Below are positions 19,329 to 28,701 of a DNA stretch of 64,000 bases, in pieces. Origin of the DNA: Exiguobacterium profundum (lineage in GTDB: Bacteria; Bacillota; Bacilli; Exiguobacteriales; Exiguobacteriaceae); the NCBI RefSeq assembly GCF_001909285.1, contig NZ_MRSV01000001.1, positions 1,011,331 to 1,075,330 on the forward strand. Direction: 5' to 3'. Within the stretch, counting starts at the first letter, position 1, and each line of letters begins with the position of its first letter. The position numbers and the translations under genes were made by a program. Under the pieces are notes generated by a model. The model saw nothing but the letters and a program-made list of their open reading frames with translations, did no database searches and was not told where the DNA came from.

Positions 19329-20431
19329 GCGACTTGGTTCTTCTGTTTCTGAGAAAGGCGTTTCTTTATGATTGAACGTCCAAGCTGAATCCCTGGTCGC
19401 TCGATAACCTGATACGTGACGGATGCAATCACGCCAGAGACGACGAGCGTCACGAGGAACGTCAACATCCATACCGTCGTCACGCTATATTGCTGGGTCC
19501 ACGTCTCGTTGAAGAGATGATTGACCCAATCGAGGACGAAAAAGTGGACGAGGTACAGGCTGAAGCTGATATACCCGATGTACTGCATCACCGGATGATT
19601 GAGGATACGTCCCCGAATGCCGGATAAGCCGAGAGCCAACAGACAAAAGGCGAGACCGAACAGCGCATGTTTCGGAAATGCGCTATAGACATCATATGGA
19701 GTAATCCCGAGTATGATAAGTAACGCAATCGATCCGAACGTCATCGCATAGTGCGTTCGCACGGACCACGATTGGTCGCGCCACACGAGATACAACGTGA
19801 CCCCCATCAAGAAGATCGGCAGCTGGTTCGGGAACCAATAAAAGGCGAAACTCTTCACGTCCATGAATGGCTGACGCTGTTCGGTCAGGAGGTGCAGGAC
19901 GATGCTGAGTACGAGCGTCGATGTTGTCCACACAATCCCTTGACGCGCCGTCTTGATCCATTTGAACAGGAACGGCACACATGCATAAAATAAAAATTCG
20001 TTCGAGATTGACCAACCGCCCGGCACGAGACTGAATAACCACTCGGGATGCAGGACGTTCGTGAACGTCAACGTCGAGACCAAGAGGGAAAGTGTCACGT
20101 CTGGATAAGCCGTCGAAACCCCGATGAATTGATTGATTAGATCAAAACTCAAGTAGAAGAGCAGTGCGGCGTAAAACATCGGTGCGATTCGGAAGAAGCG
20201 CTTCGTGTAGAAGTCCTGAAGCGGAATCTGGCGCGATACCGTATAGCGCTCCAATGAATAGAACAACGTGAAGGCGCTGACGATAAAAAAGAGTTGGACG
20301 CCGCGCGACCCTTGTATCCCGATATGGTATAACCAATCGGGCAATTGTTGAAGGGACCGTGTCGAGTGCGTCAACACGACCCCGAGGATGGCATAACCGC
20401 GAAGGGCATCTAAAAAACTGAGCTTCTGCAA
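19325..20431 (-). CDS. Membrane acyltransferase, family 3
   Basis: 368 residues with about ten transmembrane helices. The start is TTG at 20431, with AGAGGAG about 11 bases before it. The family signature is present: F-L-D-A-L-R-G near the start, a His in LTHS, and a R-F-F-R-I-A-P motif about residue 85. Such enzymes move acyl groups, often acetyl, onto cell-surface sugars across the membrane. The C-terminus is basic and cytoplasmic, with no SGNH domain, unlike the enzyme at 56797. It is the last gene on its strand before a bidirectional terminator. Substrate unknown; the nearby glycan genes are a natural candidate. Confidence 0.85.
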   Translation of the reverse strand: MQKLSFLDALRGYAILGVVLTHSTRSLQQLPDWLYHIGIQGSRGVQLFFIVSAFTLFYSLERYTVSRQIPLQDFYTKRFFRIAPMFYAALLFYLSFDLINQFIGVSTAYPDVTLSLLVSTLTFTNVLHPEWLFSLVPGGWSISNEFLFYACVPFLFKWIKTARQGIVWTTSTLVLSIVLHLLTEQRQPFMDVKSFAFYWFPNQLPIFLMGVTLYLVWRDQSWSVRTHYAMTFGSIALLIILGITPYDVYSAFPKHALFGLAFCLLALGLSGIRGRILNHPVMQYIGYISFSLYLVHFFVLDWVNHLFNETWTQQYSVTTVWMLTFLVTLVVSGVIASVTYQVIERPGIQLGRSIIKKRLSQKQKNQVA

Positions 20432-20550
20432 CTGATGTAATCTCCTCTATACATTCCTATTTTTCTTTTCTTTAAACAATCTATCACGCTGTTGACGGTG
20501 TGTCTATTTGATTCAGACACTTGTGTTGAAACTGTAAAATATACTTCTCG

Positions 20551-22632
20551 TTAAATCGGCACGCGAATCTGTCTCGTCTCTTTGTTCGAGAGCGTATAGG
20601 TCACGATGTAGTTCGAACCGGACACTTTCACACTGGCCGACCGAATCGTCGTCTTCGACTGGTCGAGTCGTATGAGCGTGAGGTAGCGCACGTCTTTCCC
20701 GGTATTATACGAGATGACTTGTGGACGCGGCTTCCATTCGTAATCCTCGACGGCGACGAAGCTCGTGCTGTTGCGCATCGATGAATTTTTAAGGTTCAGC
20801 TGCATGAGCTGGATCGTTCGCCCGTTCGTATCACCGTAGACGACGTTCTGGGTCGCCATCGAACTCTGAAGGAGTTTCAAACCTTCGGCGAGATGGAACC
20901 GCTGCACGAACTTCGTGGTTGCGGGTGAACTGATCCGGTCGTAGACGATGAGTGTCTGTTCTCTGTCGTAGACGAGCGTCCGTCGATGCGTCGCCCCGTT
21001 CCCGATGAGCTGGCTCTCCCCAATCGTAAGAAGGGTCGAACCAAGATTTTGTACGGTCTTGATGTTGCTCTTCCCACGCATCGTAGAACGGAGGTCGAGA
21101 TTCGCCCCGTCACGGTGGACGGTATTGTGGGCATCGACACCGAAGACGCGCTGACGTTCGGGGCGATTCGTATAGCCGTAGCGACCCGTCTCGATGATGA
21201 AGTCGCGGCCGAGGCCGTACAGGTCGATGCTCAAATCATCGGCATGCTTGTGGGCACTGCTGTGATAACCGGCTGTCATCATCACCTGGGTCGCCTGATT
21301 GAACGCGCGAGGTGGAGATGCCCAGTATTCGCGCATGAAGCTGTATTGGTTGCTGATCCGTTTCGCCGTGACCGGCGGGCGTGTCCCTTCCTTCCCTTGG
21401 GTGAGGGCGAAGACGAGCTCGGGGAAATCCTCGATATGCGGAATGATCGAGGTGTTCCGTCTGACACCGGACGTGTCTCCAAAGATCGGGAGTGTCCCGT
21501 TCGGTTTGATCATATACGTCAGTTGCTTCGGCATCTGTTCGACCCGTGCCATGCTCGAAGGGAGTGAGAAACGGTTCGCTTCTGCCCAGATGAGGAAGCG
21601 GTCGAGCACATGATACATATAGGATTGATAGCCGGGTGAATGCTCGAGATGGACGGCGTCCGACGTGATGCTGTGGCGGATCTGTTTGTCGAGGCGGCTA
21701 TCTGCGAGCGTCTTCCACGTTCTGCTCCGGTCGAACTGTGGGAACGTCTGCGCGATGGCGGTGAGCGCCATGTCTTGGAATATCCCATGATTGTGATCAT
21801 TTTTATAGAAGCTAGACGTCGCGAGTAACGTGCCATGGTCGTGGAGCGTCCGCAACATCAGACCGGTGAACGCCGTATCTTTATAGAGTGAAGAAGATTT
21901 ATAGGCATCCCAAAAATTCAAGAGATGGAACGTCCGGATCGACGTGCCGTGGTCGTTATATGGCCAACGGTACTGTTTGTAGTTCGCAATCGGATGGGCT
22001 TTCGTCCAACTTTTAACGACCCGTACCCCGTACTTCAAATAAGCGGTATTGCCGGTCTCGTTATACGCCTGGGTCAATTGATTGAGCACCGTCAAATAAT
22101 GAATTTGGAACGGATAGGAATTGCTCGACGAGCTCGGGATGTCCCGGTGCCAGTTAAACGTATCGACGTTCGGGACGGACAATTGATATGGTTTGGACGG
22201 GATCGACCAATCCCCACGAATCGCACGGTTGGCGTAGTCGACGGCGCGCGCAGGTGTCAATTTTTCATATTCATATGGCGCGTGAAGTGGCATCTGTTTC
22301 ATATACTCATGCGCGAGTCGTGCCGTTCCACTCGACTTCAAATTCGAAGCGGTGAGTGGGTCACCGAGTAAGAGCTTGGCCTGACTTTTCTTTATGTAGA
22401 TCTTTTTCGTATTACTCAGTGCGATGTAGTACCAGCCGGACGTACTGACGGCTGTATAGCGTTTTGTTGTCGAATACGCTGCCACTTTCGTCAATCGACC
22501 GTTCTTCATTTCATAGACGATCGCATTCGGGATGGAGCGGATATCGAAAGGGTTCGTCGCAGCCTGGACGGAGTCTGTCGGGGTCATGCCCCAAGCCCCT
22601 ACTAAGACGAGGACGAGTAATATTCGTTTCAT
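20551..22632 (-). CDS. Secreted heparinase II/III family protein, paralogue 1
   Basis: 693 residues; GAGGTG precedes the ATG at 22632. Signal peptide about 1-24 (ends VQAAT). An N-terminal domain of about 100 residues holds a strand pattern G-W-Y-Y-I-A and Y-I-K-K-S-Q-A. Next is an alpha-helical (alpha/alpha toroid) region of the Hepar_II_III_N type with D-H-N-H-G-I-F and H-L-E-H-S-P-G-Y motifs. The C-terminal beta domain carries A-H-K-H-A-D-D-L-S (His461, His463, Asp465), typical of heparinase II/III lyases. Probably cleaves a uronic-acid-containing polymer outside the cell. Two paralogues follow at 24406 and 26611. Substrate not known; the ManNAcA-type polymer encoded nearby is an inferred candidate. 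Confidence 0.85.
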   Translation of the reverse strand: MKRILLVLVLVGAWGMTPTDSVQAATNPFDIRSIPNAIVYEMKNGRLTKVAAYSTTKRYTAVSTSGWYYIALSNTKKIYIKKSQAKLLLGDPLTASNLKSSGTARLAHEYMKQMPLHAPYEYEKLTPARAVDYANRAIRGDWSIPSKPYQLSVPNVDTFNWHRDIPSSSSNSYPFQIHYLTVLNQLTQAYNETGNTAYLKYGVRVVKSWTKAHPIANYKQYRWPYNDHGTSIRTFHLLNFWDAYKSSSLYKDTAFTGLMLRTLHDHGTLLATSSFYKNDHNHGIFQDMALTAIAQTFPQFDRSRTWKTLADSRLDKQIRHSITSDAVHLEHSPGYQSYMYHVLDRFLIWAEANRFSLPSSMARVEQMPKQLTYMIKPNGTLPIFGDTSGVRRNTSIIPHIEDFPELVFALTQGKEGTRPPVTAKRISNQYSFMREYWASPPRAFNQATQVMMTAGYHSSAHKHADDLSIDLYGLGRDFIIETGRYGYTNRPERQRVFGVDAHNTVHRDGANLDLRSTMRGKSNIKTVQNLGSTLLTIGESQLIGNGATHRRTLVYDREQTLIVYDRISSPATTKFVQRFHLAEGLKLLQSSMATQNVVYGDTNGRTIQLMQLNLKNSSMRNSTSFVAVEDYEWKPRPQVISYNTGKDVRYLTLIRLDQSKTTIRSASVKVSGSNYIVTYTLSNKETRQIRVPI

Positions 22633-22727
22633 GCATACACCTCAATAAATTTGGATTTACTTCTTTTTCAAAGTTTTTCATGAGGTGTGTTTATTCCCTT
22701 AATTTTCTATATCATCTTTATTGTAAA

Positions 22728-22762
22728 AAGAAGACCGATCTAATTCACAGGTCGGTCTTCTT
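22728..22762 (-). terminator. Terminator of the recombinase operon
   Basis: AAGAAGACCGA (22728-22738) and its complement TCGGTCTTCTT (22752-22762). Read on the minus strand it is followed by TTT and lies just behind the recombinase stop codon. Confidence 0.75.
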
Positions 22763-22772
22763 TGTATGGTCT

Positions 22773-23636
22773 TTAGTCCAACGTCAACCGTTCCACCGCA
22801 TCGCGAAGATGATTCTCGCGGACGCGGATGTACCGACGTGTCGTCTTCGGCTCGGAGTGGCCAAGTAATTCAGATAACGTCGTCTCCATGACCCCTTTGT
22901 CATAAAGGTGCGTCGTAAACGCATGGCGGAGCGTATGAGACGTGACAGGATAGCCGAGCACTTCTGTGGCAGCCGTCGTCAGGTGACGATTGATGGTCGT
23001 CTTACAAATCAAGGCGCCTCGTGCAGATGGGAACACATAGGGCGAGTCGACGGGACGTCTCTCCTCATCGAGATAGGTGGAGAGGACGGAGTGAATCTTG
23101 TCATTCAACGGGATTCTCCGAGGTTTTCCCGTCTTTGATTCTCGGACATAGAGTAACCGCTCCTGCAAATCGATCGCATCGAGTTTTAACAGCCGGACCT
23201 CGTTGATCCGCATGCCCGTATGGAGCTGAACGGTTAAAAACGTACGATACAACGGGACGTCGATGGCATCGATGACAGCGGACAATTGTCTAGGGGAGGG
23301 GATCTCCGTTGAATGGCGCTCGGTCACTTTCACCCGTAACTGATGAAAGGGGTTATGGGTGACGAGATGCTCGGCGATGGCCCAATCGTATAAGCCGCGA
23401 AGAGCGCTCAAGTAGTTGTTGATGGTCACCGGTTGACAGCCTTCCGAACGGAGCGTGTCGATATACGGCATGACGTCCTGCCTCGTTTTTAATTCGTCGA
23501 GCGTTCTGCCTTCTCCCATGATGGCTTCGAATCGGGCAAACTTATAGGTCGCCTGGCTGACCGTGTTGTACGATTTTCCGGTCATGCGTAAATAGTGGAT
23601 GTGCTGGGCGACGGCGTCTTTCATGTGTAAGGTCAT
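22773..23636 (-). CDS. Tyrosine recombinase
   Basis: 287 residues; AGAGGAG lies 8 bases before ATG 23636, overlapping the end of the preceding sigma-like gene. An N-terminal SAM-like DNA-binding domain (about 5-85) precedes the catalytic domain. Active-site residues are visible: Arg in T-G-M-R-I-N-E-V, Lys in S-K-T-G-K-P-R-R, the H-x-x-R motif in S-H-T-L-R-H-A-F, His in L-G-H-S-E-P-K-T-T, and the nucleophile Tyr in R-R-Y-I-R. It lacks the extra N-terminal arm domain of phage integrases, so it resembles XerC/D, RecV or fimbrial-switch recombinases. No phage genes or tRNA att site are nearby. Two inverted, site-like sequences lie just upstream of the operon. Confidence 0.88.
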   Translation of the reverse strand: MTLHMKDAVAQHIHYLRMTGKSYNTVSQATYKFARFEAIMGEGRTLDELKTRQDVMPYIDTLRSEGCQPVTINNYLSALRGLYDWAIAEHLVTHNPFHQLRVKVTERHSTEIPSPRQLSAVIDAIDVPLYRTFLTVQLHTGMRINEVRLLKLDAIDLQERLLYVRESKTGKPRRIPLNDKIHSVLSTYLDEERRPVDSPYVFPSARGALICKTTINRHLTTAATEVLGYPVTSHTLRHAFTTHLYDKGVMETTLSELLGHSEPKTTRRYIRVRENHLRDAVERLTLD

Positions 23637-23650
23637 CTTCCTGTCTCCTC

Positions 23651-24094
23651 TTACTCGTTGTCATCACGGAGCATCCGTTGCAGTTCGGCCTTATAGGCGC
23701 GTAGTCGACTCGGCGAGTACCCGAGCGATGCCTCGGTCCCGTGAAGCATATGGCAGAGTAAGGTGAAATGGCGATTTGGTAAAGTGGATCGCTTGTCGTC
23801 TAGCCAAAGCGAGAGGGGCACTTCGCGCTGGTCGACTTGTTCGGGGAGTCGTTCGCTCGCGACCTCGTGTTGGAGCGTCTTCGCCTGTTTGGCCCGTTCG
23901 TTCAGGATGGCCCCGCGGATACGGATGAAACAGTACGTTTTTCCTAACGTTTTTCCGTCTTGAAGGGCACGCCATAGGGCGATTCGTGCCGTTTGGGCGG
24001 CATCGTCGACTTCGTTCGGATGGAGATGGAGCTGTCGGATGACGTAAAAGATCATCGGCTCCCACTCTCTGATTTGTTCGTTAGCATCTGGCAT
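23651..24094 (-). CDS. Sigma-70-like protein, region 2
   Basis: 147 residues from ATG 24094; the frame is open further upstream but has no clear ribosome binding site there, and that at 24094 is weak (GCAGG). Residues about 10-65 look like sigma region 2: W-E-P-M-I-F-Y-V-I-R-Q-L, then D-D-A-A-Q-T-A-R-I-A-L-W-R-A-L and a basic C-F-I-R-I-R-G-A-I-L-N-E. The C-terminus could hold a short helix-turn-helix, but I cannot confirm a region 4. Fourteen bases separate it from the recombinase, so they form an operon. A sigma-like protein paired with a tyrosine recombinase is unusual. It may direct transcription of the recombinase or of the surface genes alongside. Confidence 0.6.
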   Translation of the reverse strand: MPDANEQIREWEPMIFYVIRQLHLHPNEVDDAAQTARIALWRALQDGKTLGKTYCFIRIRGAILNERAKQAKTLQHEVASERLPEQVDQREVPLSLWLDDKRSTLPNRHFTLLCHMLHGTEASLGYSPSRLRAYKAELQRMLRDDNE

Positions 24095-24143
24095 GGTGGC
24101 CTGCTTTCCCGCGCGCGTCTCAAGTTTCCTAGGTGGATACAGC

Positions 24144-24284
24144 ATAATGGTTGTTATGCAGATTTCGCACCTCACGAACGTTGAAGTTTCGTCAGCCCAA
24201 ATCAGACACAGCAAGGAAATGCTGTATGGCACAACCTGAATCCCTTATCCATCGGAAGCATCGATTCTCTATAACAACCATTAT
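24144..24284. repeat. Inverted pair of recombination-site-like sequences
   Basis: ATAATGGTTGTTAT (24144-24157) and its exact complement ATAACAACCATTAT (24271-24284) bound a 113-base segment. Each copy is itself a dyad, ATAA-N6-TTAT, with the 6-base centre TGGTTG in opposite orientation in the two copies; the dyads extend to GCATAA/TTATGC on the left and CTATAA/TTATAG on the right. Two arms around a short asymmetric centre is the layout of a tyrosine-recombinase crossover site. The segment between them holds a hairpin (ACAGCA/TGCTGT, 24208-24225) and no clear promoter. Confidence 0.5.
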
Positions 24285-24338
24285 AGGAGGATGTCAGGTG
24301 ATGATTTGATCAAGAGGTAAATGATATCCAAGTTTTAG

Positions 24339-24367
24339 TTGTTTAGTATTCGTTTAATGGATATAAT
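24339..24367 (+). promoter_or_regulatory. Sigma-A promoter of heparinase paralogue 2
   Basis: TTGTTT (24339-24344), 17-base spacer, perfect TATAAT (24362-24367), 38 bases before ATG 24406. It lies outside the inverted-repeat segment, so inversion would not remove it. Between the repeat and this promoter, AGGAGG (24285-24290) precedes a 9-codon frame (ATG 24291) of unknown meaning. Confidence 0.55.
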
Positions 24368-24405
24368 TTACAGGGTGAAATCAAACCGGAAATGTGAGGA
24401 AAATC

Positions 24406-26496
24406 ATGAAACCTTTGTATAGACGATTATCCATCGGGATGTTGAGCGGGATGCTCCTGTTCGCACCGATGACGACGGCTTCGGCCAACTCGGACTTCAA
24501 CGTGCGCGTCGCTCCGTCGACCACGCTGCACCAAATGAAGGGGAAGAAACTGGTCCCACTACAGAAGACGAACACGACGAAAGAATACCGCATCGTGCGC
24601 CCGTCCGGATGGTATTATCTTGCCATGTCCGGCGGCAAACGGATCTATATCAAGAAAAGCCAGGCGGAGGTCGTTCCGGCCCGTTCGTTGACGAAAGCAC
24701 GCATCCAATCGAAAACGAACCGTCCGCTCGTCCATACATACATGGGGCAGACCAAGTCCCATATCCCGTATGAGTATGACCGACTGTCGACAGAACAGGC
24801 GAAACAGTTCGCCGATCGGGCGCTCGCCGGCAACTGGTATATCCCGACGAAACCGAACAATCTGTCGGTCCCAAACATCGACACGTTCAACTGGCATAAG
24901 GACGTCCCGGCCGTGGACAGCAACTCGTTCCCGTTCCAGCTCCACTACTTGACGGTCCTCAATCAGTTGACGCAAGCGTACAATGACACGGGTGACCTCG
25001 CCTATCTGAAATATGGCGAACGACTAATCAAAAGTTGGACGAAGGCACACCCGGCCTATAACTACAAACGACTCAAGTGGGGATACAATGACCAAGGAAC
25101 GGCGATTCGTGTGTTCCATTTGTTGAATTTCTGGGATGTGTATAAAGAGACGTCACTCTATCGGGACCCTGCCTTCACCGAGCTCATGTTGAAAACATTG
25201 TATGAGCATGGGGAGATCTTGGCCTCGTCCGACTTCTACAAACCGAAACATAACCACGGCATCTTCCAAGACATGGCGCTCACCGCCATCGCCCAGACGT
25301 TCCCTGAGTTTGACCGGAGTAAGGTTTGGCAATCGACCGCCAGCACGCGGCTCCAGGCGCAGATTGCCCATAGCATCTCGCCGGAAGGGGTTCACCTTGA
25401 ACACTCACCTCGATATCACGTGTATGTGTATCATACGTTGTCGCGCTTTATCGAATGGGCCGAGGCTAACCAGTTCGTTCTGCCTTCACGCTCGGGCTAT
25501 ATCGAGAAGATGCCGGATCAGCTCACCTACATGTTGAAGCCGAATCGGACGCTTCCGATCTTCGGTGACACGACGGGGCACCTTCAAGGGATGAACATCA
25601 TTCCAAAGACGAACGAATATCCGGAGCTCAGTTTCGCAGTGAGCGGAGGGGCAGAGGGCGTGGCACCGACCCTGTTGACGAAGCAAATCGGGGACCAATA
25701 CAGCTTCATGCGCGAATATTGGTCGCGTCCACCTGAGGCTTTCTCGGGTGCGACACAAGTGATGATGACAGCCGGGTATCATAGCAGTGCCCACAAGCAT
25801 GCCGATGACTTGAGCATCGACTTCTATGGACTGGCGCGTGACTTCATCATCGAGACGGGTCGCTTCGGTTATTCGGCACGACCGGAACGGAAGGAAGTCT
25901 TTAAAGTCGAGGCCCATAACACCGTCCACCGATACGGGGAAAACTTGGATTTAAGCAAAGGCATGATCGGCCGGAGCCGTATCGTGAAGACTGAAGACCG
26001 TGGAGAGACAAGCCTCGCCATCGGAGAGAGCGCGTTGATCGGGAAAGGGGCCACGCATCGCCGCACCCTCGTCTATGACAAGGCGAAAACGCTCGTCGTC
26101 TACGACCGCATCACCTCACCGAAGCCGGACATGTTCGTCCAGCGCTTCCACCTCGGAGAGGGTCTGAAGCTATATAAAGGGACGACCGAGGCACAGAACG
26201 TGACGTTCCGAGACAGCCGCCGTCGATCGATTCAACTGATGCAGCTCGAGACGGACGAAGAGTCATATATGTCCGTTCAACCAAGTCATCTCTCGGTCCG
26301 TGATGCGGAGTGGACGCTTCGCGACCAAGTCGTCTCCATTGAATACGGTACGGACGTGCGTTACATCACACTCATGCGGATCGACCGGACGAACACCTCG
26401 ATTGTCGACACGGCGGTCAAGGAACAAGCTAATCAGTATGAACTTACCTATACACTTTCCAACGGCGATACCCATACTCTCGACGTTCCAAAATGA
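24406..26496 (+). CDS. Secreted heparinase II/III family protein, paralogue 2
   Basis: 696 residues; TGAGGA precedes ATG 24406, and the earlier in-frame GTG at 24394 overlaps that site. Signal peptide about 1-27 (ends TASAN). Domain order matches paralogue 1: small N-terminal strand domain, alpha-helical lyase domain with K-H-N-H-G-I-F and H-L-E-H-S-P-R-Y, and beta domain with A-H-K-H-A-D-D-L-S (His463, His465). Sequence is very close to paralogue 1 over the central 400 residues, so the pair arose by duplication and now faces outward from the sigma/recombinase operon. It has its own promoter and terminator. Confidence 0.85.
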   Translation: MKPLYRRLSIGMLSGMLLFAPMTTASANSDFNVRVAPSTTLHQMKGKKLVPLQKTNTTKEYRIVRPSGWYYLAMSGGKRIYIKKSQAEVVPARSLTKARIQSKTNRPLVHTYMGQTKSHIPYEYDRLSTEQAKQFADRALAGNWYIPTKPNNLSVPNIDTFNWHKDVPAVDSNSFPFQLHYLTVLNQLTQAYNDTGDLAYLKYGERLIKSWTKAHPAYNYKRLKWGYNDQGTAIRVFHLLNFWDVYKETSLYRDPAFTELMLKTLYEHGEILASSDFYKPKHNHGIFQDMALTAIAQTFPEFDRSKVWQSTASTRLQAQIAHSISPEGVHLEHSPRYHVYVYHTLSRFIEWAEANQFVLPSRSGYIEKMPDQLTYMLKPNRTLPIFGDTTGHLQGMNIIPKTNEYPELSFAVSGGAEGVAPTLLTKQIGDQYSFMREYWSRPPEAFSGATQVMMTAGYHSSAHKHADDLSIDFYGLARDFIIETGRFGYSARPERKEVFKVEAHNTVHRYGENLDLSKGMIGRSRIVKTEDRGETSLAIGESALIGKGATHRRTLVYDKAKTLVVYDRITSPKPDMFVQRFHLGEGLKLYKGTTEAQNVTFRDSRRRSIQLMQLETDEESYMSVQPSHLSVRDAEWTLRDQVVSIEYGTDVRYITLMRIDRTNTSIVDTAVKEQANQYELTYTLSNGDTHTLDVPK

Positions 26497-26501
26497 TTGA
26501 A

Positions 26502-26525
26502 GCCTGGCGACTGCCAGGCTTTTTT
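26502..26525 (+). terminator. Rho-independent terminator
   Basis: GCCTGGC (26502-26508) and GCCAGGC (26513-26519) around GACT, then a T6 run. It ends heparinase paralogue 2. Confidence 0.85.
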
Positions 26526-26610
26526 ACGTGGACGATGAGAGTAGTTGTTGAATCCCACCATTTGCTAAGGTAGAATTTTCAAGTAGAACAACTGACAAGT
26601 GAGGGAACGA

Positions 26611-28701
26611 ATGGAACATTCACATGCAAAACAGATCGTGGCTCAACTTCGGGGTTCGCTCTCGGGGAAAGCGAGCGATGGTTGGGACGTCGTCATCTCG
26701 GCAGGGACGATGTGCTATCAATGGAAGGGAAGACGAATGGTGCCAGACAGTCGGCTCGAGACGACCGAGACGGTACGGCTCATCCGTCCATACGGTCGAT
26801 ATTATATTGTCCATAGAGAAGGAAGGGAAGCACTCGTCCGCGCGACGGATGTGATGCTCCTCATGACCGAACCCCTCTCGAAAATCAAATTGACGGACAA
26901 GATGGAGCGACTGCTCGTCCGTGACTATATGAAACAAAAGCGCACATTCGCTTCGTACCATTATGAACAAATCCGTGATGAACAGGCGGTTCATTTTGCG
27001 GAAGAGACGTTGAACGGAAGATGGTATATCCCATCGCTTCCGCATACATTGGCCGTCCGTGATGTTCGGACGTTCGATTGGAACAAAATGTTACCACCTG
27101 TGAACAACAACTCGTTCCTTTTCCAACTCCACTATTTGACGACGGTCAATCAACTGACTCATGCCTATGAGGTGACGAAAAAAGAAAAATACTTGCACTA
27201 TGCACACCAAATCATCGATAGCTGGCAGAGCCATCATCCGCTGCATGGCGGTCCGCGGGGGCGTGTAGCATACCATGCGCACGGTACGGCGATTCGAGTA
27301 TTCCATATACTCCGTTTCTTTGAAGCGTATCGCCAGGCACCGATCCATCATGATGCCCGTGTGACGTGCCGCTTGTTACATCTGTTATATGAACATGCGA
27401 CATTACTGGCGACCCCTACCTTTTATCGTCCGCTCCATAACCATGGGCTCTTTCAAGATATGGCACTGTTTGCGATTGCTTCCTGTTTTCCGGAGTTTGA
27501 TCGCAGTGCGGATTGGAGAAGGATTGCGCGTGCGCGGTTGAATAAGCAACTCGACATTTGCCTTTCGGAGGACGGGACCCATTTGGAGCACTCGCCCGGC
27601 TATCACGTTTACGTGTACCATACGCTAAGTCGATTTAGAGACTGGGCCGATTTAAATGGATTCACGTTGCCGGAAGGGATTGGACGCATCGACCGGATGC
27701 CAAAGCGCCTCTTGCATTTCATTAAACCGAACCAAACCTTGCCGATCGTGGGGGATACGGGAGGACAGCTTCGCGGAAGCCGTTTAATTCCTCGGATTGA
27801 AACGTTTCCCGAACTAGCCTTTGCCATGAGTGGAGGGACACAAGGACAATGCCCAGAAGAACTGCTGGCGAATCTAGGCTCTCAATATGCGGTCATGCGT
27901 GAATATTGGCACCATGCAAAGCGTCCGTTTCGTGACGCCACCTATATTCTGATGACAGCGGGATACCATGGGGGTGCACATAAACATGCCGACGACTTGA
28001 GTCTCGAACTATATGGATTGGGGCGGGATTTCATCGTCGAAACTGGTCGGTATGGCTATGTGGACGGACCTGAGCGTGCGCAAGCACTACGTGTCGCGGC
28101 GCACAATACGGTACATCGACTCGGAGAAGAGCTCGACTTGTCGATCGAGCGAATCGGAGAGAGCGGAATCCTAGAGGTGAAAGAGGCGCGGAAACAGATG
28201 ACGGCGACCGGAGTGAGCCGTCTGATTGGAAAAGGGGCCATTCATACTAGGCATGTCGTGTACGATAAGGCGCGAACGCTTGTCGTGTTTGATCGGATTG
28301 TCGCGCCGGAAGCGGACCTCTTTGTCCAGCGCTTCCATCTGGCACCCGGTTTGGACCTGGTATCGGGTACACCAGAAGAACACAACGTTCGATTTAAAGA
28401 TGCCTCGAATCGAGCCATTCAATTCATTCAGCTTTTAAAAAGCGAAGAGGCTTATATGGCACTTGAACCGAGCCATGTATCCATGCGTGATTTGGAGTGG
28501 ACTCCCCGCCAGCAAGTCGTTTCGATTGAACATGGTAGCGAAGTTCGCTTTTTGACTCTGATTCGACTAGACCGGACCGGGAAGCGTGTCGTCGATACGA
28601 AGGTCGAAGAGCGGGATGGGGTGTACATCGTCTCGTATTGGATTGAAAACGGGGGAAAGCATGTCATTCATGTGCCGTGTGAGGAAAGTCGTGACGTGTA
28701 A
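26611..28701 (+). CDS. Heparinase II/III family protein, paralogue 3, no signal peptide
   Basis: 696 residues from ATG 26611 behind GAGGGAACG; GTG 26599 is in frame but overlaps the ribosome binding site. It aligns with paralogues 1 and 2 through the lyase domains, keeping H-N-H-G-L-F, H-L-E-H-S-P-G-Y and A-H-K-H-A-D-D-L-S (His457, His459). Unlike them it begins with about 20 hydrophilic residues (MEHSHAKQIVAQLRG) where they have a signal peptide, so it should stay in the cytoplasm. It could act on imported or newly made polymer, or be a copy that lost export. It is more diverged than the other pair. An outer stem GTAAAGGAC/GTCCTTTAC (28696-28746) follows without a T-tract. Confidence 0.82.
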   Translation: MEHSHAKQIVAQLRGSLSGKASDGWDVVISAGTMCYQWKGRRMVPDSRLETTETVRLIRPYGRYYIVHREGREALVRATDVMLLMTEPLSKIKLTDKMERLLVRDYMKQKRTFASYHYEQIRDEQAVHFAEETLNGRWYIPSLPHTLAVRDVRTFDWNKMLPPVNNNSFLFQLHYLTTVNQLTHAYEVTKKEKYLHYAHQIIDSWQSHHPLHGGPRGRVAYHAHGTAIRVFHILRFFEAYRQAPIHHDARVTCRLLHLLYEHATLLATPTFYRPLHNHGLFQDMALFAIASCFPEFDRSADWRRIARARLNKQLDICLSEDGTHLEHSPGYHVYVYHTLSRFRDWADLNGFTLPEGIGRIDRMPKRLLHFIKPNQTLPIVGDTGGQLRGSRLIPRIETFPELAFAMSGGTQGQCPEELLANLGSQYAVMREYWHHAKRPFRDATYILMTAGYHGGAHKHADDLSLELYGLGRDFIVETGRYGYVDGPERAQALRVAAHNTVHRLGEELDLSIERIGESGILEVKEARKQMTATGVSRLIGKGAIHTRHVVYDKARTLVVFDRIVAPEADLFVQRFHLAPGLDLVSGTPEEHNVRFKDASNRAIQFIQLLKSEEAYMALEPSHVSMRDLEWTPRQQVVSIEHGSEVRFLTLIRLDRTGKRVVDTKVEERDGVYIVSYWIENGGKHVIHVPCEESRDV

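Follow-up and report, generated by a model that had tools for sequence, protein, structure and literature searches.

Invertible DNA switches of the familiar kind govern a surface structure, and strains often differ in them. The nearest described system found, as judged from the accessible text, is the flagellar switch of Clostridioides difficile, where a segment of 154 bp between 21 bp inverted repeats is inverted by the tyrosine recombinase RecV (PMC5386303). According to the same text, this switch lies upstream of an operon that includes the sigma factor gene sigD, its effect is exerted post-initiation, and RecV also inverts the cwpV switch (PMC5386303). Further examples come from the invertons of gut bacteria, invertible elements that in the accessible portions of two accounts are often found near cell-surface genes (PMC11892184; reviewed in PMC11868660), and from the phase-variable capsule cps1 of Akkermansia muciniphila, in whose abstract invertible elements are linked to capsule genes (PMC13343947).

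The locus considered here lies in a stretch of 64,000 nucleotides from Exiguobacterium profundum (hereafter the window, meaning the whole stretch of DNA that was analyzed). It shares with the C. difficile flagellar switch, as far as the accessible text of that report describes it, a short segment, inverted repeats, a tyrosine recombinase and a downstream operon with a sigma gene (PMC5386303). In C. difficile sigD belongs to a larger flagellar operon, whereas at this locus the operon is made up of the sigma gene and the recombinase gene themselves, and the genome has this one site pair alone. Set against the gut invertons, in so far as the accessible portions of those accounts describe them, it is one conserved locus that runs through a whole genus-level group, with sites that are specific to clades and a sigma gene of its own. 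The abstract on Akkermansia cps1 mentions no sigma-recombinase operon, and the host is unrelated (PMC13343947). No report of phase variation or inversion at this Exiguobacterium locus appeared among the results of searches of the open literature (including the accessible part of PMC2615787), Exiguobacterium is nowhere named in the main text of an inversion survey (PMC5903667), and broader literature searches returned other systems only. From comparison of sequences we hold it to be likely, with good confidence, that the segment at 24158-24270 is flipped by the adjacent recombinase, and we predict that this switches the sigma-recombinase operon on and off.

The module in the window

The features of the module are collected in Table 1. 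The recombinase is made up of a SAM-like core-binding domain and a catalytic domain, and no arm domain was matched, in line with the sequence-only reading that it lacks the arm domain of phage integrases. Six residues that we take to be its catalytic positions (R143, K168, H234, R237, H260, and Y269) are all invariant in nine aligned close recombinases. The closest NCBIfam profiles and solved structures are those of XerC/XerD, XerA and related tyrosine recombinases, yet the protein falls below the curated cut-off of every NCBIfam model that it matched. Five of the six named loci matching the recombinase alignment are from Exiguobacterium (s48, TNDT2, alkaliphilum 12/1, s122, and qingdaonense S82); the one remaining, that of Roseospira marina, shares 26% identity along only a portion of its length.

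Table 1. Coordinates of the module and of adjoining elements, given as positions in the window.
Feature	Position	Strand	Remarks
Terminator-like hairpin, 3' of recombinase	22724..22766	.	inverted repeat I4
Tyrosine recombinase, Xer-like	22773..23636	-	287 aa; core-binding and catalytic domains
Sigma-like protein	23651..24094	-	147 aa if its ATG is used; sigma-70 region 2; relative in 38/38 family genomes
Conserved leader	24095..24140	-	CCTAGG then GCGCGC; between -10-like hexamer and sigma start
Fixed -10-like hexamer TATGCT (predicted)	24141..24146	-	overlaps end of sigma-side site
Sigma-side crossover-like site	24144..24157	-	copy of ATAACAACCATTAT; dyad 24142-24159; kept in 7/7 class I genomes
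Invertible segment	24158..24270	.	113 bp inside the two 14-mers; both orientations in relatives
Weak -35 candidate GTGCGA (uncertain)	24165..24170	-	18 bp upstream of -10-like hexamer, present orientation
Distal crossover-like site	24271..24284	+	copy of ATAACAACCATTAT; dyad 24269-24286; kept in 7/7 class I genomes
Promoter-like sequence of the lyase gene, TTGTTT-17-TATAAT	24339..24367	+	outside invertible segment

Although 783 phage records matched the recombinase, the ten listed are at most 30% identical. No match to the window's site pair (class I, below) was found in viral contigs or to the sigma-like protein in a plasmid collection, and nothing phage-like appeared among the window neighbors scanned with Pfam, as had been claimed from the sequence. 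An integrase of a phage, an ICE or another mobile element was rejected on the lack of a matched arm domain, the nature of the scanned neighbors (lyase and polysaccharide genes) and the lack of a plasmid match for the sigma-like protein and of a viral match for the site pair.

The sigma-like gene ends 14 bases before the start of the recombinase gene on the same (minus) strand, in agreement with the operon proposed earlier. Its product contains sigma-70 region 2 (PF04542, 29.6 bits against a cut-off of 24), and no Pfam match to region 4 was obtained. A structure model (mean pLDDT 86, pTM 0.49) shows the region-2 helices and four C-terminal helices, and the top Foldseek matches of this model in the PDB are sigma factors (best E 0.015, none at E 0.001). 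Given these helices and fold matches, the region-4-like helices of the model likely correspond to region 4. A start giving 193 amino acids, as first read, is unlikely since inspection by eye places an in-frame stop upstream of the ATG in a relative (G005). A wider search with the sigma protein returned 32 proteins; the four with a named source are all from Exiguobacterium, and the weakest match (P0047, 25%) may be an ordinary sigma factor.

Upstream of the sigma gene, the two perfect 14-base inverted copies described in the sequence-only reading are present as claimed, bounding 113 bases, as are their asymmetric 6-base centers (TGGTTG), which are opposed to each other. The dyads extend to 6-base arms in which the outer letters differ between the copies yet are self-complementary, so that each forms an 18-bp dyad: GCATAA-TGGTTG-TTATGC on the sigma side and CTATAA-CAACCA-TTATAG at the distal end. 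With up to two mismatches allowed, the 64-kb window contains just these two copies, and two or more such loose matches arose in 5 of 100 shuffles. In the 2.9-Mb genome, with up to one mismatch, the 14-mer occurs twice only, as one inverted pair, and the backwards-pattern control gave none. In 1000 dinucleotide shuffles of 24095-24394, perfect inverted pairs whose arms stand 40 or more bases apart reached 12 bases at most, compared with 14 in the real sequence. A chance origin of the repeats is ruled out by these shuffles, by the uniqueness of the pair in the genome and by its co-occurrence with the recombinase. A search of 20000-28000 for known RNA elements gave no match at the gathering threshold.

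The genes flanking the module in the window are lyases of the heparinase II/III type, consistent with the surface lyases noted there before. A long same-strand run of surface-polysaccharide-type genes (24394-51274) starts just beside the switch, comprising two heparinase-type lyases, a 5'-nucleotidase family member, glycosyltransferases, UDP-glucose dehydrogenase, ABC export, UDP-GlcNAc 2-epimerase, and acyltransferases.

Distribution and site classes across the family

Thirty-eight genomes of the family were examined, 19 of the genus Exiguobacterium and 19 of a sister genus, and an order-level search gave the same 38; the search for close recombinases covered 41 genomes. A profile search with the sigma protein found a relative in every family genome (38/38), in each case with an inverted site pair upstream that encloses 110-138 bp, the pair in G045 being a variant. 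A tyrosine recombinase gene directly follows the sigma gene in 38 of 39 distinct copies; the remaining copy (G015) is cut by a contig end, and a recombinase match lies at the end of another contig of that genome. A close recombinase, 68-100% identical, is found in seven of the 41 genomes, the window's own included, while in genomes without it a distant one (30-36% identity where listed) occupies the same place after the sigma gene. The class I site pair is present in 7 of the 19 Exiguobacterium-genus genomes, exactly those with the close recombinase, always as one pair each with 113 bp inside. The suggested search of relatives for the dyad beside this recombinase has thus found the repeats conserved together with the enzyme.

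One of five site pairs (Table 2) occurs in 40 of 41 copies, two of which are duplicates in G009, with 110-135 bp inside; the 41st, that of G045, has the variant pair with 138 bp inside. Genome-wide site searches covered classes I and V. The class V site, with up to one mismatch, forms one inverted pair in 18 of the 19 sister-genus genomes, G045 being the exception. Backwards-pattern controls gave a single match in 6 of 19 genomes for class V and in 2 of 19 for class I, so single chance matches to such short sites do occur, with no inverted pair at the module. The description of the module as self-contained gains support from the single inverted pair per genome in 7/7 class I and 18/18 class V genomes.

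Table 2. The five site classes and the orientation of the enclosed segment in distinct copies. The labels A and B were assigned arbitrarily class by class, and the counts leave out two duplicate G009 contigs and G045.
Site class	Site sequence	Orientation A	Orientation B
I	ATAATGGTTGTTAT	4	3
II	AAACGCTATTC	1	2
III	TCATCGATAT	3	5
IV	AATCGTTGTTCTT	2	0
V (sister genus)	ATAAGTAGAGTTATC	13	5

Site sequence classes largely follow recombinase clades. In a tree of 56 recombinase sequences, a single clade is formed by each of classes I, II, and III and likewise by the second recombinases of class V; the first recombinases of class V require two label changes because the branch of G045 is long, and the two sequences of class IV do not resolve as a clade. 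The second recombinase of the sister genus, encoded on the opposite strand in 18 of 19 genomes (L098:9716-10603 and equivalents), lies directly after the first in 17 and about 2.5 kb further on in G044. In G009, three contigs (L094, L095, and L096) carry one and the same class III module, oriented alike in all three, and a fourth contig carries a class I module; this is probably a mixed assembly, which was flagged as 8% contaminated.

Orientation of the segment and predicted promoter elements

The class I inner segment is in orientation A in G000, G010, G005, and G017 and in orientation B in G004, G003, and G009, and the direction of the sigma-side flank is constant across genomes of both orientations. 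With one genome per species, each genome shows one orientation per module. Among pairs of opposite orientation, the flipped match exceeded both the unflipped match and 20 shuffles in 93 of 94; the best pair (G008/G016) is 96.5% identical when flipped and 46.0% when unflipped, and in the exception (G000/G009a) the flipped match did not rise above the shuffles. The presence of both orientations among relatives, with a fixed direction of the sigma-side flank, indicates that the segment has been inverted in nature. Inversion, as predicted from the opposed centers, is therefore seen between species, the sites and the sigma side staying in place while the segment is found both ways.

How often has the segment turned? 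On recombinase trees drawn for each class, at least 2 inversions are required for class I, 3 for class III and 4 for class V (on average 2.5, 2.5, and 4.6 with shuffled labels). With 1 assigned to class II, which has three sequences, the total is 10, near that of randomly placed labels. The corresponding sigma trees give 2, 2, and 4. Orientation is therefore not stably inherited between species.

In 38 of 38 distinct copies an 18-base stretch at the sigma-side site contains TATACT or TATGCT, a -10-like hexamer that abuts this site or overlaps it and that is found in the mirror stretch of the other site in none (0/38); G045 also has such a hexamer as judged by eye. The position about 18 bases upstream of this hexamer falls inside the invertible segment. 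In class V, a TTG lies 18 bp before the hexamer in all 18 junctions of orientation A (13 observed, 5 computed by flipping) and in none of the 18 of orientation B (5 observed, 13 computed), and orientation A gives TTGAAA or another TTG hexamer at this spacing. Class V is thus predicted, at the level of sequence, to have a split promoter that is made or broken by the flip. In classes I-IV, the window included, no convincing -35 element or clear sigma-A promoter was found in either orientation with consensus weights set by hand. In this promoter scan GTGCGA led the rightward sites in one case alone, that of G004 flipped into orientation A, and its score there was weak. Neither orientation is thereby marked as ON or OFF in these classes, whose promoter may need help or another sigma factor.

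Between the hexamer and the sigma start lies a leader with two short palindromes, CCTAGG...GAGCGCTC in classes II-IV and CCGCGG...ATATGCATAT in the sister genus (L082, L098, and equivalents). The leader was also tried as a candidate regulon motif on the 19 Exiguobacterium-genus and the 19 sister-genus genomes; every match was at the module and no regulon was found. The pattern occurs once in 10 of the 19 Exiguobacterium-genus genomes, three times in G009, at its three contig regions that share one module, and in none of the other eight, and once in each of the 19 sister-genus genomes; the window's own genome is unmatched because class I leaders differ. Found only at the module, the conserved leader is a possible operator or self-regulation site. 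The segment enclosed by class V sites is more conserved over some 40 bp at one end (AAACCGTTGGCATGATT..., as in L098 upstream of 8474) than elsewhere, and this part looks, to our eye, a little like a CcpA site.

Likely output of the proposed switch and competing explanations

If the segment turns, what does it control? The gene to the left of the module varies between genomes (a lyase, an HTH gene, a ROK regulator, an epimerase, a subtilase, or unknowns), and with a simple ORF caller it is divergent from the sigma gene in 29 of 39 distinct copies, in the opposite arrangement in nine and lacking in one. This variation, together with the lyase gene's own promoter-like sequence, makes control of one fixed neighbor unlikely as the conserved function and the operon itself the more likely output. 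On these sequence features the switch likely acts on the sigma-recombinase operon and not on the flanking lyases. The earlier hint that those lyases are the controlled surface genes is not supported, as neighbors differ, the lyase at 24394 has its own promoter-like sequence and the hexamer faces the sigma gene.

An opposing account, which we regard as unlikely, has the switch mainly controlling the divergent neighbor beyond its distal end, which in the window is the lyase at 24394 followed by the polysaccharide genes, with the operon serving as flipping machinery only. The common divergence of the left neighbor (29/39) and the position of the window lyase at the head of a long same-strand run with glycosyltransferases, UDP-glucose dehydrogenase and ABC export would suit such control, but the identity of that neighbor differs between genomes, the -10-like hexamer is at the sigma-side site in 38/38 copies and at the left site in 0/38, and the TTGTTT-17-TATAAT of the lyase gene stands outside the segment. 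Slightly less probable again is a genuine inversion system that regulates itself only, in which sigma transcribes the recombinase and the whole is a selfish or relic element with no wider regulon. The restriction of the conserved leader elements to the module, the lack of a regulon motif in the search above and the changing neighbors all fit this account; against it, conservation of the sigma gene in 38/38 family genomes suggests selection for an output, and the sigma protein found no match in the plasmid collection.

Inversion might instead be the work of the host XerC/XerD pair, in place of the adjacent recombinase, acting at dif-like sites; what we take to be the dif core is similar to the class I dyad, and four more distant tyrosine recombinase matches exist in the genome. 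We consider this very improbable. Whereas dif sites are universal, class I sites occur in only 7 of the 19 genomes of the genus, the pair being confined to those with the matching neighbor recombinase, and site class largely follows the clade of that recombinase; if the enzyme were a universal one, its substrate would not be expected to vary along with a neighboring gene. Least credible of all is that the repeats are static operator dyads for a regulator, with no inversion. The dyads are perfect and flank a promoter-like region, as operators might, but four of the five site classes include both orientations, with identities that reach 96.5% once one segment is flipped, and static operators were rejected on this ground.

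In the favored reading, that of a segment flipped by the adjacent recombinase, the enzyme would bind the dyads, cut at their asymmetric 6-base centers and invert the segment. The -10 would stay fixed outside the sigma-side site with the upstream half of the promoter inside the segment, so that each flip would swap the sequence about 18 bp upstream of the -10. With the recombinase gene standing second in the operon, the very enzyme that turns the operon OFF would be made in the ON state, and the sigma factor would appear in only some of the cells or in pulses. It would then act in trans on other promoters, plausibly those of cell-surface polysaccharide genes near the module. Glycosyltransferases, pyruvyl transferases, flippases, and sugar dehydrogenases were found at the loci scanned elsewhere (part of the neighbors were scanned), and the recurrence of polysaccharide genes near the module in these loci makes a surface-polysaccharide regulon of the sigma factor plausible. 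A bolder version can be put forward tentatively: a self-limiting pulse generator kept genus-wide, in which a split promoter drives sigma and its own recombinase, short random bursts of a surface-polysaccharide program result, and the recognition sequence has shifted more than once in site and enzyme alike.

The switch described here seems to control a transcription factor and its own flipping enzyme. If so, phase variation would belong to the core regulation of a genus that is mostly environmental, and in the five recombinase-site pairs nature would offer a series in which to study changes in tyrosine recombinase specificity.
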